NCBI RefSeq assembly: GCF_009939295.1
Contig: NZ_WVIC01000009.1
Location: forward strand, 1 to 64,000
DNA: 64,000 nucleotides
Direction of reading: 5' to 3'
DNA from: Petrachloros mirabilis ULC683
GTDB taxonomy: Bacteria; Cyanobacteriota; Cyanobacteriia; Thermosynechococcales; Thermosynechococcaceae
Part shown: positions 29,758-41,604 of the stretch, in pieces
How positions within the stretch are numbered: the stretch's first letter is position 1
Layout of the letters: every line of letters begins with the position of its first letter
Position numbers and translations under genes: made by a program
Notes under the pieces: model-generated
Seen by the model: the letters and a program-made list of their open reading frames with translations, nothing else
Databases searched by the model: none
Told to the model about the DNA's origin: nothing

Positions 29758-30660
29758 TTAAGCTTGCCGCCGCTCAATCTGACCCATGGCCAGTTTGGCC
29801 AGCACTCGAATTGACTCCATAGGATCCTCAAGCATCGACTGCAACGGTGCCAGGGTTGTAGCGTCTCCCACTTTTCCCAGAGTGGTGACCGCCGCTTGGC
29901 GCACCTCGCTATCGGCATCGCGGAGTGCCAGAATCAGATGGGGCAAGGCCGGGGCGTAGTTGAGTTGTCCCAGGGCTGCTGCTGCCTCAGTCCGAATCAC
30001 TGCTGCGGCATCTGTGAGAGCTGATACTAGCTGCTCACAGGCTCGAACATCGTTTTTTTCCTGAGCAACCTGGGCGATCGCACCCACTGCTGCACATCGG
30101 ACATCCACCGAGTCTGACTCCAGAGCCGGGTATAACAACTCAGCCGCTTCTGCTCCAATAAACGCCAGTGCCCAGGCAGCATGACCCTTGGTGCTTTCCG
30201 GGTGTTCAGAAGCAGCCAAAATCTCCAAGAGCGCAGGAACCGCCGTTTCACCCGTGCGAGCCAAAGCCCCCGCCGCCGAACCCTGCACCACCGTATCTTC
30301 ATCGTAGAGAAAGGCTTTCAGAAGGGTGGGCACGGCAGTCGGATCGGCAATTAAGGTCAGCGTCTTGGCCGCTGCCCGGCGCACCACTACATCGGCATGA
30401 TTGGCCAGAGCCTTGACCAGAAAGGGAGTTGCTGGCTCTCCGATGTCCCCCAGAGTTTCAGCCGCACGCAGCCGCACCAGACCCCGTGTATCACCCAATC
30501 CCTCTTCAACCAAGCGCTGGAGTGACTCAGCATCGTTGGGGTCAAAGGTGCCCAAGGTAATTTGCTCGTTCACTTGGTGCAAAAAGGCATCCGTTCTGGC
30601 TTGAGCTGCCAAAGTCTCGTTATTAGGGTCTAGGGTTTCCGGGTGAGGCGCATTACTCAT
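29758..30660 (-). CDS. cpeF: Phycoerythrobilin lyase CpeF (HEAT-repeat family)
   Basis: A 300-residue protein of about seven HEAT repeats (RLRAAETLGDIGEPA, VRRAAAKTLTLIADP, VRQAAVTTLGKVGD). Length and repeat layout match CpeF/MpeV-type lyases. CpeF attaches the doubly linked phycoerythrobilin at C48/C59 of CpeB with help from CpeZ. It reads toward higA and is followed upstream by a small gene of unknown function that likely starts the operon. A close paralog such as an NblB-like protein cannot be fully excluded. Confidence 0.82.
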   Translation of the reverse strand: MSNAPHPETLDPNNETLAAQARTDAFLHQVNEQITLGTFDPNDAESLQRLVEEGLGDTRGLVRLRAAETLGDIGEPATPFLVKALANHADVVVRRAAAKTLTLIADPTAVPTLLKAFLYDEDTVVQGSAAGALARTGETAVPALLEILAASEHPESTKGHAAWALAFIGAEAAELLYPALESDSVDVRCAAVGAIAQVAQEKNDVRACEQLVSALTDAAAVIRTEAAAALGQLNYAPALPHLILALRDADSEVRQAAVTTLGKVGDATTLAPLQSMLEDPMESIRVLAKLAMGQIERRQA

Positions 30661-30681
30661 GGAGAGGTTCCTTTTGGGGGT

Positions 30682-30921
30682 TTAGTTTTGGTTTGTTAGG
30701 GTTGCCTGCCGATTGCGCAGTTCCTGAAGCATGGTATCTATCCTGGCCAGATCCGGCTCCAGGTTAGACATCACAGTTGTCCGCAAAACTTTAGCCCGCT
30801 GTGCCATGGCCAGGGTGTCATTCACCAAGCGTTCTCGATATTGTTCGAGTTCGGTAATCATTTCTGCCACTTCTTCCGCCGTGGCCTGATCTAAAGGGAG
30901 AGGTTCTGGACTGTCCGACAT
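30682..30921 (-). CDS. Small helical protein upstream of cpeF, unknown function
   Basis: A 79-residue acidic, charged protein predicted to be almost all helix (AEEVAEMITELEQYRERLVN, then TMLQELRNRQ). The spacing of hydrophobic residues is consistent with a coiled coil. There is no signal or membrane segment. It ends 21 bases before cpeF on the same strand, so co-transcription is likely. An additional ATG lies one codon upstream (30924). I do not recognise a family; position suggests a helper in phycoerythrin assembly or expression. Confidence 0.7.
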   Translation of the reverse strand: MSDSPEPLPLDQATAEEVAEMITELEQYRERLVNDTLAMAQRAKVLRTTVMSNLEPDLARIDTMLQELRNRQATLTNQN

Positions 30922-31128
30922 CATCTTGATTCCTGAAGCTAAAATTTCTCAATTGGGGTGATATTCTGATGCGCTTTGATCTTCTCAGATTGTGACGCTG
31001 CCATCAAATCTATGTGTGATCAAACAGGATCAATATCGACACACTGCTGATGTTGGTATCTGACCTCACCAATGCTGCCTAATGCCCAAGTTCAGAGGCA
31101 TTGATCACGTAATCAGTCAAACGAACTC

Positions 31129-34549: not shown

Positions 34550-35353
34550 GTGCGTAGCCATTTCGGTGCGTTAGATAGAACAACCCAGCTAGCCGCCCTT
34601 AAAGCGGGTCAGGCGCAACAGCTCGATTTATACCAGTGCGATTTGCAGGGGTGTGAGTTGGTGGGGGTCGATTTCCGTCAGGCTCAGTTGCTGCGTGCCA
34701 ATTTCCAGGGAGCAAATCTGAGCCAAGCCCAGTTTGAGGAGGCTGATTTGCGGGGGGCAAACTTCCAGGATGCCAACTTGCAGGGAGCCAATTTGCAGGG
34801 GGCTTGCCTCTATCGGGTGGTGTTGCGGGGAGCCAATTTGACGGATGCCGATCTGGCTGAGGCAAAATTGGCAGCAGCTCTCTACGATGGAGACACGATC
34901 TGGCCCCAGGGGTTTGCCTATCAGTCTTCGGGGGCAATTGGGCCAGGAGCCAATCTGAATGGGGCGAAGCTCAATACCGCCCATCTGCGTGGGATAAACT
35001 TACAGAATGCAAGGCTCCTGGGAGCCTATCTGGGTGGCGCAAACTTAAAGGGTGCCAATCTCCGGGGTGCCCGACTGAGCAATGCCGATCTTCGTCGCGC
35101 TTTTTTGGCGGGAGCCTCGCTGCGGGGAGCAGGCTTAAATGGAGCCAACTTCCAGGGGGCAGATCTGCGTGCGGTTGACTTCACCCATGCTGAGTTTGAT
35201 CATCTCGAAAATATTGCCGGGGCTGACTTTACGGCGGTGCAGGGGCTAACTCAGGGGCAGCGATCGCACCTGCTCAGCCACCCAGAGACCGATCTAGACA
35301 CCTGGAATGCCTACACCCGCAAAACCACCCGTGAGAGCCTTATGACCCTGTAG
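34550..35353 (+). CDS. Pentapeptide-repeat protein
   Basis: A 267-residue protein dominated by pentapeptide repeats of the A(D/N)LXX type (ANFQG ANLSQ, ADLRG ANFQD ANLQG), forming a right-handed quadrilateral beta helix in two blocks (about 28-110 and 130-230) separated by a YDGDTIWPQGF segment, a known insertion in cyanobacterial members. No signal peptide. Function unknown. The start is a GTG at 34550 with no strong ribosome-binding site. A stray family B terminus lies 22 bases upstream, in its promoter. Confidence 0.85.
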   Translation: MRSHFGALDRTTQLAALKAGQAQQLDLYQCDLQGCELVGVDFRQAQLLRANFQGANLSQAQFEEADLRGANFQDANLQGANLQGACLYRVVLRGANLTDADLAEAKLAAALYDGDTIWPQGFAYQSSGAIGPGANLNGAKLNTAHLRGINLQNARLLGAYLGGANLKGANLRGARLSNADLRRAFLAGASLRGAGLNGANFQGADLRAVDFTHAEFDHLENIAGADFTAVQGLTQGQRSHLLSHPETDLDTWNAYTRKTTRESLMTL

Positions 35354-35716: not shown

Positions 35717-36031
35717 ATGACGCAGCACCTCAGCGACTACCAGAATCGATCTATCCGCCTTAGCAAAGAACGACTCGCCCACATTCTGGAACATCCAGAA
35801 ATGGTTGAGTTAGCATCTCAGATTGCCAAGGTTCTTCAAGAACCACAAGTGGTGCGACAATCCAGCAGCGATAGGAGAGTTCAGCTTTACTATTGCTACT
35901 ACGAACAATCGATGGTGGGGGCAAAATGGTTGTGTGTCGTTGTGAAACATTTACCCGATGATGCCCTCATCATTACCGCCTATCTCACAGACAAAATTAA
36001 ACAAGGAGTAGACCTATGGCAAAATCAGTAA
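35717..36031 (+). CDS. Small protein, possible nuclease toxin paired with DUF2283
   Basis: A 104-residue protein (NRSIRLSKERLAHILEHPEM, QVVRQSSSDRRVQLYYCYYEQ, VVVKHLPDDALIITAYLTDK). The pattern of a His-containing N-terminal helix and a beta-rich C-terminus resembles small RelE/barnase-like nucleases of the DUF4258 type. AAGGAGGT sits directly before the ATG. Its stop overlaps the next gene by 16 bases, typical of a toxin-antitoxin pair. Toxin identity is inferred from context; the fold is not certain. Confidence 0.65.
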   Translation: MTQHLSDYQNRSIRLSKERLAHILEHPEMVELASQIAKVLQEPQVVRQSSSDRRVQLYYCYYEQSMVGAKWLCVVVKHLPDDALIITAYLTDKIKQGVDLWQNQ

Positions 36032-36264
36032 CTGTTTGGTTTGACCCCGAAGCTGACTTTCTTGAGGTCAAATTTTCGGATGCTCCTGGTTATATGCGTG
36101 AAACTAACAACGATGCCATTATGGAGCGGGTGGATATAGAAGGAAATGGGATCGGTTTTTCTATTCTCAACGTTAGCCAACTGGCGAAAGGACACCCTTT
36201 GGTTGCTCAATTGACAGGTGCCTCTGGCTTCGAGCAGAGTGCTGTGGGAGAATGCCAACTGTGA
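36016..36264 (+). CDS. DUF2283 family protein (antitoxin-like)
   Basis: An 82-residue DUF2283 protein: VTVWFDPEADFLEVKFSD, NNDAIMERVDIEGNGIGFSILN. Members are often encoded directly after DUF4258 genes and are taken as antitoxins. The gene overlaps its upstream partner and ends 27 bases before the orphan phycobiliprotein gene. It may drive or merely precede that gene's expression. Confidence 0.82.
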   Translation: MAKSVTVWFDPEADFLEVKFSDAPGYMRETNNDAIMERVDIEGNGIGFSILNVSQLAKGHPLVAQLTGASGFEQSAVGECQL

Positions 36265-36291: not shown

Positions 36292-36879
36292 ATGACCCAG
36301 CTCCCCCTCAGTGAAAAAGCACGGACGCTCATTCCCAAAGCCCGCATTGTCAGCTTTGTTACCTGGCAAGATACCCACCCGCCAGAACTGCTGCAACGGT
36401 TTCAGGCTGCTGACGACGAGGGTCGCTATCTCAGCGATGCGGACGGTGAAGCCATACAAGCCCTGGCTGCGGAGACCGGGACTTGGCTGCCGGTGGTGAA
36501 ACAACTCCGCGATCGCGCCCCCGATATTGTGGCCAAGGCCAGAGCCCAGGTGCTAGCTCAGTTCCCCAACATTACCGAACCTGGGGGCGGGCTTTATCCC
36601 CCTGAACGGGCTGATGCCTGCTGGCGAGACTTCTGGCACTTTCTGCGCTGCATCACCTACGGCATTGCCGGACAGCACACCGACTACACCAGCCCAGCAG
36701 GGCTGCAAGCCATGGAAGAACTCTACCAGGAGCTTCAAGTGCCCCTAGAGGCCATGGTTATGGGCTTAGAGGCGATCAAAACAGCTAGCCTTGAGGAAAT
36801 GGAGGCTCAGTCTCAATCTGCCCTGTCTCCCTACTTTGACCATCTGATTGCCCAATTGCGGCAGTTTCGGGCTCCATGA
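36292..36879 (+). CDS. Orphan phycobiliprotein-like protein
   Basis: A 195-residue protein with the phycobiliprotein globin-like fold but unlike any standard alpha or beta subunit. The bilin site is kept: C110-W-R112-D113 (ADACWRDFWHFLRCITYG) aligns with C-L-R-D around C80 of CpeB, keeping the chromophore Cys and the Arg/Asp that hold the bilin. A second cysteine is C120. The C-terminal MEELYQELQVPLEAMVMGLEAIK matches the equivalent helices of true subunits, while the N-terminal third (1-95) is divergent. It overlaps the HEAT-repeat gene downstream by four bases and lies 1.1 kb before cpeC. It could be a chromophore-binding accessory, sensor or degradation factor; I do not know a described function. 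Confidence 0.75.
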   Translation: MTQLPLSEKARTLIPKARIVSFVTWQDTHPPELLQRFQAADDEGRYLSDADGEAIQALAAETGTWLPVVKQLRDRAPDIVAKARAQVLAQFPNITEPGGGLYPPERADACWRDFWHFLRCITYGIAGQHTDYTSPAGLQAMEELYQELQVPLEAMVMGLEAIKTASLEEMEAQSQSALSPYFDHLIAQLRQFRAP

Positions 36880-37550
36880 CAGATTCCTCACTTCAGGATT
36901 GGGAAGCCTGGCTGCACGGCGGGTCTCTAGATCAATGCAAGGCGGCTCTGGATGCCCTGGCCAAGTACCCGGCGCATGAGGCGGTGCCGATCTTGCAGCG
37001 ATTGCTCACCCACCCCGATGTGGTGCGGCGTCGCTTTGCGGTCATGGGCTTGGGCAACCACCCCACCGCCGCATCCTGGCAGATTCTGACCACCTTGATC
37101 ACCCAAGAGCAAGACGACAATATTTTGGCCGAGGCGGCCAACACCCTCTGTGACTTTGGCGAAGCCGCTGTGCCCCTGTTGGTGCAGTTATTTGAGCGAT
37201 GTCCCCACTGGTTGACTCGTCAAACCATTCTGGCGATCTTGATGGATACCCAGCCCAACAATATTCTGCTCTCCGTCGTTCGCATGGGGCTGTTAGACAA
37301 AACCCTTACGGTGCGAGAAACGGCCATTCTGGCCCTGGGCAGCCTTCTGGATGGGGTCTGTCATGGGGAGGCGATGGTGCTGCTGACGGAGCTATCGGGC
37401 TCGTCAGTTTGGCGCGATCGCTGGCAAGCTGCGATCGCCCTTAGGCGTTCCCAAACCCCAGAGGCCAGAAAGCGTCTGGCGGCTTTGCGCCAGGACGATC
37501 ATCCCTGGGTGGTCGCCGCAGCCCTGGAAGCCACCTTGCAATCGAGTTGA
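36876..37550 (+). CDS. HEAT-repeat, bilin lyase-like protein paired with the orphan phycobiliprotein
   Basis: A 224-residue HEAT-repeat protein (ALDALAKYPAHEAVPIL, RRFAVMGLGNHPTA, ILALGSLLDG, RWQAAIALRRSQTPEARKRLA). It belongs to the broad group that includes CpcE/F lyases, CpeZ and NblB. The start overlaps the preceding stop (ATGA), so the two proteins are probably made together and may bind each other. The most economical idea is a dedicated lyase or chaperone for the orphan phycobiliprotein; an NblB-like pigment-removing role is the alternative. Confidence 0.75.
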   Translation: MTDSSLQDWEAWLHGGSLDQCKAALDALAKYPAHEAVPILQRLLTHPDVVRRRFAVMGLGNHPTAASWQILTTLITQEQDDNILAEAANTLCDFGEAAVPLLVQLFERCPHWLTRQTILAILMDTQPNNILLSVVRMGLLDKTLTVRETAILALGSLLDGVCHGEAMVLLTELSGSSVWRDRWQAAIALRRSQTPEARKRLAALRQDDHPWVVAAALEATLQSS

Positions 37551-37981: not shown

Positions 37982-38842
37982 ATGGCTTTTGGACCAGCTT
38001 CACGCTTAGGTGTTAGCCTATTTGACGAAACCCCGCCTACTGAGTGGATTCCCGGTCAGTCTGCTTCAGATGCTGAAACGGTGATTCGTGCAGTCTATCG
38101 GCAAGTTCTCGGTAACGCATACGTCATGGAAAGTGAGCGTCTCAGCGTTCCGGAATCTCAATTCAAACGGGGTGAACTTAGTGTCCGGGAGTTTGTGCGA
38201 CAAGTCGCCAAATCTGATTTGTACCGCTCTCGCTTTTTTACGAGCTGTGCTCGCTACCGAGCCATTGAACTGAATTTCAGGCACCTCTTGGGTCGTCCCC
38301 CCTTGGATCTAGAGGAGATGCGCACCCACAGCACCATTCTCGATACCGAAGGGTTTGAGGCCGAAATCGACTCTTACCTAGACAGTGATGAGTATCAAAA
38401 CACCTTTGGCGAAAACTTTGTCCCCTACGTGCGGGGCTACAAAACTGAAGCCTGCCAGAGCATGGTGCAGTTTACTCATACCTTTGAGTTGGTGCGTGGT
38501 GCTTCGAGCAGCAGCCTCAAGGGCAACATTGCCGGCAAGCGCCCCCGTCTCAATTCTTTGGTGATTCAGAAAGTTCCGACGCCAGTGGTTTCGCCCGCCA
38601 GTGACGGTGCGACTTTCCAACATCCGCCAGGAACAGCGAGAACTCGCTTTGGTTCTAGCATCGGTGATGATGGAAAAATGTATCGCATTGAAGTTACAGG
38701 ATACCGATCAAAGGTGGTCAACCCGGTGTCTAAGTTCCGTCGTAGCAACCAGGTGTATTACGTCCCCTTTGAGAAGCTTTCTCAAGAGTATCAGCGGATT
38801 CACCGGCAGGGTGGGGTAATTGCCAGTATCACACCGGTCTAG
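37982..38842 (+). CDS. cpeC: Phycoerythrin-associated rod linker CpeC
   Basis: A 286-residue rod linker. Residues about 25-155 are the phycobilisome linker domain (VIRAVYRQVLGNAYVMESERL, SVREFVRQVAKSDLYRSRFF, ELNFRHLLGRPP). The C-terminal 55 residues form a CpcD-type domain (MYRIEVTGYRS... EYQRIHRQGGVI). It joins phycoerythrin hexamers in the rods. First gene of cpeCD; both termini are conserved. Confidence 0.93.
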   Translation: MAFGPASRLGVSLFDETPPTEWIPGQSASDAETVIRAVYRQVLGNAYVMESERLSVPESQFKRGELSVREFVRQVAKSDLYRSRFFTSCARYRAIELNFRHLLGRPPLDLEEMRTHSTILDTEGFEAEIDSYLDSDEYQNTFGENFVPYVRGYKTEACQSMVQFTHTFELVRGASSSSLKGNIAGKRPRLNSLVIQKVPTPVVSPASDGATFQHPPGTARTRFGSSIGDDGKMYRIEVTGYRSKVVNPVSKFRRSNQVYYVPFEKLSQEYQRIHRQGGVIASITPV

Positions 38843-41255: not shown

Positions 41256-41604
41256 AGTTTCCGGTGCCAGCGTCGATCTGGAGCAGTCCCAGACTAAGCT
41301 GCTGCCCCCAGAAGCTCAAAAAAAGATGAAAGGCTGGATTCGCAGCCGCCATCTGATTTGCTCTGGCAACTTTTTTATTTTTGAAACGGTTGATTATAGT
41401 GCCATCGAGCGCTTCTTTGAATGCGTTGCTGGCCTGGGCGGCACGGTCATCGCCGTAGACACCATTGACAAGGTTTGGATTGGCGATCATCGACAAGTCT
41501 TTCTCTACCAGGCCAAGGCCAGCCTGCATACCCCCTGTCACGACCTCAAGCAATACTGGCTCAAATACGGCAGCTTTCGTACCCGGTTTGACGGGCAAGC
41601 CTGA
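41233..41604 (+). CDS. cpeR: Phycoerythrin operon activator CpeR
   Basis: A 123-residue CpeR: KKMKGWIRSRHLICSGNFFI, FFECVAGLGGTVIAVDTIDK, DHRQVFLYQAKASLHTP. In Fremyella CpeR is required for cpeBA and peb expression and links green-light induction of cpeCDESTR to the rest of the regulon. The open frame extends back to 41044 inside cpeT; the ATG at 41233 matches the family N-terminus with a slightly longer leader. Confidence 0.93.
   Translation: MNSQLSHKVSGASVDLEQSQTKLLPPEAQKKMKGWIRSRHLICSGNFFIFETVDYSAIERFFECVAGLGGTVIAVDTIDKVWIGDHRQVFLYQAKASLHTPCHDLKQYWLKYGSFRTRFDGQA

Follow-up and report, generated by a model that had tools for sequence, protein, structure and literature searches.

Judged by its sequence, the apl open reading frame (ORF) in the phycoerythrin locus of Petrachloros mirabilis ULC683 encodes a protein of the Apl (AplA) type. 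These single-gene phycobiliproteins branch separately from every alpha and beta antenna subunit, and apl is inherited together with phycoerythrin. In our estimation, this identity and the phycoerythrin context are very likely both correct. The gene overlaps a HEAT-repeat gene, here called HEAT-B, in what appears to be a remnant arrangement, and Apl might act as an accessory factor; the explanation that unites identity, context, remnant and accessory mechanism we consider probable overall. The Apl family itself was already known. Our additions are its tracking with phycoerythrin, a usual partner that is not HEAT-B but a divergent HEAT paralogue (HEAT-A), and a DUF2656-ankyrin-HEAT unit before cpeC. 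The features discussed lie in a window of 64,000 nucleotides, the whole stretch of DNA that was analysed (Table 1).

Table 1. Positions of the features in and around the apl/HEAT-B gene pair
Feature	Position	Strand	Basis or remark
Pentapeptide-repeat gene, conserved upstream of apl	34550..35353	+	43-48% identity to the gene in the marine Synechococcus Unk5 position
Weak DUF4258-like ORF and DUF2283 ORF, in the place of HEAT-A in relatives	35717..36264	+	End 27 bp before apl
apl, coding for a 195-aa allophycocyanin-like phycobiliprotein (AplA family)	36292..36879	+	ORF, PF00502, tree
Cys110 codon, predicted bilin attachment site in C-W-R-D	36619..36621	+	Invariant in 90/90 homologues
4 bp (ATGA) shared by the apl stop and the HEAT-B start	36876..36879	+	Sequence
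HEAT-B, 224-aa alpha-solenoid; not NblB, no recognised lyase	36876..37550	+	PF13646, equivalogs, tree, model
cpeC-type phycoerythrin rod linker, first of cpeC-cpeD-cpeS-cpeT-cpeR	37982..38842	+	PBS_linker_poly and CpcD domains
CpeR-like gene	41272-41592		Named from its place after cpeT

Identity of the apl product

As described in the initial annotation, apl encodes a product of 195 aa with a phycobiliprotein fold, and this product does carry C110, R112 and D113. The PF00502 globin profile matches residues 37-189 with 171 bits and is covered from its position 3 to its end. The nearest subunits are ApcD and ApcA, and residue 38 pairs with ApcD residue 9 in the alignment. Since the globin profile also spans residues 37-189, the N-terminus is an extension of 29 residues relative to ApcD/ApcA and not a replaced third, so that the description of an N-terminal third unlike alpha, beta or allophycocyanin subunits has to be abandoned. 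This extension is common to Apl homologues and is well kept outside the marine set. When the canonical subunit equivalogs (ApcA/B, CpcA/B and CpeA/B) were applied, the product stayed below every cut-off, the highest score being that of ApcA (84.6 of 270 bits). The E-values of both domains, PF00502 in apl and PF13646 in HEAT-B, rule out chance.

The AlphaFold model of Apl (pLDDT 91.7) had allophycocyanins as its best PDB matches. Superposition on allophycocyanin, for which an ApcA control fold was absent, gave TM values of 0.61/0.73 and an rmsd of about 8 Å, and in this model the N-terminal helical hairpin may be shifted. No viral homologues of the Apl fold were found at E<=0.001.

Homologues were taken from the best 80 of 229 relatives, together with their gene surroundings, and from marine-type loci with published gene order. 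C110, W111, R112 and D113 were unchanged in 90/90 aligned homologues, and where most antenna subunits have PGGN, these homologues have G, D, S, E, A or K as the residue after PGG. The usual alpha/beta contact residues D41, R119 and Y123 are retained, whereas PGGN is lost and the N-terminus altered; given the retained residues, Apl could still pair with an antenna subunit.

In a tree of 57 phycobiliproteins, the 30 Apl sequences, including six of the marine type, formed one clade (100/100) apart from the alpha/beta subunits. The marine sequences and that of locus L022 are on long branches, which leaves their branching order within the Apl clade unsure. The clade is identified through its marine-type members, which occupy the published aplA gene position. 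By the definition reportedly given by Montgomery et al. (2004; J Bacteriol 186:7420), Apl proteins resemble allophycocyanin, extend it by 28 residues at the N-terminus and keep the chromophore residues intact; F. diplosiphon AplA is said to bear a covalent bilin and to be absent from phycobilisomes. The marine loci analysed here have the order apl/cpcG/pentapeptide/cpeC, the same arrangement as described for marine Synechococcus aplA (PMC2246261). The class is recognised, with marine Synechococcus aplA located upstream of a cpcG gene in phycoerythrin II strains (PMC2246261, PMC6363710, PMC6776005). Calling the protein undescribed was thus mistaken, as the tree places it in a described family (PMC2246261, PMC6363710). 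The initial annotation was right in kind: the protein stands outside the usual antenna subunits, has an intact chromophore site and is linked to phycoerythrin. We found no role assigned to Apl proteins in the literature since 2004.

The host genome has its own apcA/B/D/F, cpcBA and cpeBA. Two divergent PF00502-family proteins of the host are encoded side by side on contig C47 (L010, G000:C47:50186-53590), and the one that was read has no chromophore Cys motif.

Co-occurrence of Apl and phycoerythrin

The initial annotation had proposed a survey against phycoerythrin genes, and for apl the link turned out to be very strong. Genomes were counted as Apl-positive on a strong full-family match, or on a weaker marine-type tier in one family (f2), and as phycoerythrin-positive when CpeB exceeded its cut-off. 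Among 291 cyanobacterial genomes, 69 of the 78 with Apl also had CpeB; nine had Apl alone, 14 had CpeB alone and 199 had neither (Fisher p ~3e-42, with species that are not independent). Of the 18 families with Apl, 17 contained at least one genome in which CpeB accompanied it. As nine Apl-positive genomes have no CpeB over the cut-off, the phycoerythrin link is not absolute. Six of the 14 genomes with CpeB alone belong to family f2 and are small (<2 Mb), which would fit Prochlorococcus, a group without phycobilisomes. With the near-exclusive co-inheritance with phycoerythrin across 17 families and the usual divergent HEAT neighbour, the loose label 'photoreceptor' can give way to a testable claim on how phycoerythrin is made.

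The HEAT-repeat neighbour

HEAT-B had been described as a HEAT protein of the lyase/NblB type. The HEAT part of this description stands: the ORF contains HEAT repeats (PF13646, E 4.7e-23), and its AlphaFold model is a confident alpha-solenoid (pLDDT 95.3). Its top structural matches are designed alphaReps, with CpcE only in 49th place (TM 0.51), and a sequence search of solved structures returned a designed alphaRep only. In a tree, the HEAT-B type formed a 100/100 clade nested in a larger HEAT family, apart from NblB and from the other two HEAT genes present at the locus. NblB identity was rejected on this separation and on a score of 52 bits against the NF045915 cut-off of 300; the true NblB of the host is encoded on another contig (309.9 bits). 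Identity with a recognisable lyase was rejected as well, since no CpcE, CpcF or CpeY model matched at E<=0.1 and the clade is separate.

Gene surroundings of apl in the host and in its relatives

The stated coordinates of the two ORFs, their four-base overlap and the position of the pair just upstream of cpeC were all confirmed. The overlap, an ATGA, may allow translational coupling, and it was absent from the other apl loci examined. The cpeC-type linker gene starts 431 bp downstream of HEAT-B and is followed by cpeD, cpeS, cpeT and the CpeR-like gene, which rules out that cpeR is missing from the locus. The pair is further surrounded by cpeBA, cpeY, two more HEAT genes, pebB, pebA, a CpeS-type gene and the pentapeptide gene. 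At 29758-30924 the window harbours a 300-aa HEAT gene, perhaps CpeF, with an adjoining 80-aa coiled-coil gene; this pair is kept in many Apl/phycoerythrin loci, and in Brasilonema, among others, it stands immediately upstream of apl.

The gene order of relatives did not support the overlapping HEAT gene as a dedicated partner, as initially proposed. A divergent HEAT paralogue is located within 3 kb upstream of apl in 51 of the 65 usable loci (HEAT-A, and once a C16-like type), whereas HEAT-B was found within 3 kb of apl in none of the 65. HEAT-B is missing from 56 of the 78 Apl-positive genomes. It occurs together with Apl in 22 of the 291 genomes and without it in four; with 22 of 26 HEAT-B genomes being Apl-positive, there may still be an indirect functional link between the two. 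Across the 65 loci and 291 genomes, a conserved Apl/HEAT-B pair is ruled out.

In relatives, HEAT-B is the third and last gene of a DUF2656-ankyrin-HEAT unit that is usually followed by cpeC (loci L053, L054, L074, L170, L172-L175, L177 and L178, not all from different genomes), and a few loci have no ankyrin gene or no cpeC. In a relative from the same family (L018), apl, DUF2656 and HEAT-B are consecutive. DUF2656 corresponds to PF10847 (e.g. L054:10735-11208). It tracks phycoerythrin, as 56 of the 65 genomes with DUF2656 (among the 291 cyanobacterial ones) have CpeB, and marine-type genomes carry it close to cpeB. It is perhaps the unk12/orf140 gene of earlier papers; we found no literature on DUF2656 itself. 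The phycoerythrin-linked ankyrin-repeat gene (L054:11193-11924), flanked by DUF2656 and HEAT-B and upstream of cpeC, stands directly 3' of apl in some cases (L086, L104 and L111). In addition, genes for a pcyA-like reductase, HEAT-C or hemH/heme oxygenase are found near apl in some genomes (L053, L054, L064, L074 and L170), HEAT-C being a third HEAT type whose nearest relative is the C28:31171 paralogue.

Neither DUF2656 nor the ankyrin gene was found in the host genome, and the detection of DUF2656 in 65 other genomes makes its absence meaningful. The divergent HEAT-A is missing beside the host apl as well, and its place is taken by the weak DUF4258-like and DUF2283-like ORFs, which overlap each other and have a toxin-antitoxin-like size and arrangement. 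Remnants of DUF2656, the ankyrin gene and HEAT-A were sought across the window, and apart from HEAT-B itself the only match was a weak one to the 28-kb HEAT gene. As DUF2656, the ankyrin gene and the divergent HEAT-A are all missing at this locus, the overlap is best read as a lineage-specific remnant and not as a conserved dedicated pair; in the simplest history, local gene loss would have left apl touching HEAT-B. The overlapping gene pair of one genome would point to the wrong partner.

Possible function of Apl

We tentatively propose that Apl works outside the antenna as a bilin-loaded accessory factor, either in phycoerythrin assembly or in bilin or light sensing. Apl would carry one covalent bilin at the predicted site Cys110, would remain outside the phycobilisome and would serve the phycoerythrin antenna by responding to bilin or light status. 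The HEAT alpha-solenoids, HEAT-A in most species and perhaps HEAT-B in the host, would act as adaptors or chaperones. The HEAT protein CpeZ probably plays such a role for phycoerythrin. No single mechanism, this one included, merits more than such a tentative standing.

A photoreceptor that signals light colour would agree with the description of AplA as a member of a new photosensor class of unknown function (PMC2246261), and we regard this as conceivable but rather unlikely. Apl lacks an output domain, and neither kinase nor response regulator genes recur among the identified neighbours. Apl is not known to show photochemistry. A role as bilin store, carrier or stress scavenger, buffering free phycobilins while phycoerythrin is made, would suit the tracking with phycoerythrin and the surroundings of apl, which include pebBA in many loci and pcyA, heme oxygenase or S/T-type lyase genes in some; a covalent site would be unusual in a carrier, however, and this role has a comparably low likelihood.

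It is unlikely, though worth stating, that Apl, DUF2656, the ankyrin protein and HEAT-A/HEAT-B together form a phycoerythrin accessory module, in which bilin-loaded Apl would signal the bilin or light status, and repeat-protein adaptors receiving this signal would control the expression or assembly of phycoerythrin linkers. We strongly doubt that Apl and HEAT-B make up a dedicated system of two genes with HEAT-B as lyase, chaperone or bilin remover for Apl. This would account for the 4-bp overlap, for the consecutive genes in L018, for the Apl-positive majority among HEAT-B genomes and for the ankyrin gene or DUF2656 directly after apl in some loci, but it conflicts with the many Apl genomes that do without HEAT-B and the four HEAT-B genomes without Apl, with the distance between the two genes in all usable loci, with the grouping of HEAT-B with DUF2656 and the ankyrin gene and with its poor resemblance to CpcE and the lyase models. 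A minor antenna subunit of phycoerythrin-type phycobilisomes, such as a rod-core or terminal-emitter component, is very improbable even with the affinity to ApcD/ApcA, the position beside cpcG-type and cpeC linkers and the retained contact residues, given the long separate Apl branch, an extension at the pairing end, the loss of the conserved Asn after PGG and the report that AplA is not associated with the phycobilisome (PMC2246261).

Comparison with known systems

Apl shares with ApcA and ApcD the globin fold, the C-x-R-D motif and about 25-30% identity; in contrast to them it has the extension, PGGG in place of PGGN and a W after the chromophore Cys, and it scores far under the equivalog cut-offs. 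HEAT-B is, like NblB, a small HEAT-repeat alpha-solenoid, but its score for that family is only about a sixth of the cut-off. With CpcE/CpcF and CpeY/CpeZ/CpeF it has in common the HEAT/PBS_lyase repeats and the phycoerythrin locus, whereas it matches no lyase model, forms a clade apart from the locus's own CpeZ- and CpeF-like genes and is a poor structural match to CpcE. The host Apl agrees with the described AplA/Apl proteins, among them those of marine Synechococcus, in being allophycocyanin-related, with an extension of about 28-29 residues, an intact chromophore site and phycoerythrin genes around it, and it belongs to one clade with the marine sequences. The host apl differs in being overlapped by HEAT-B and in having no divergent HEAT-A neighbour.
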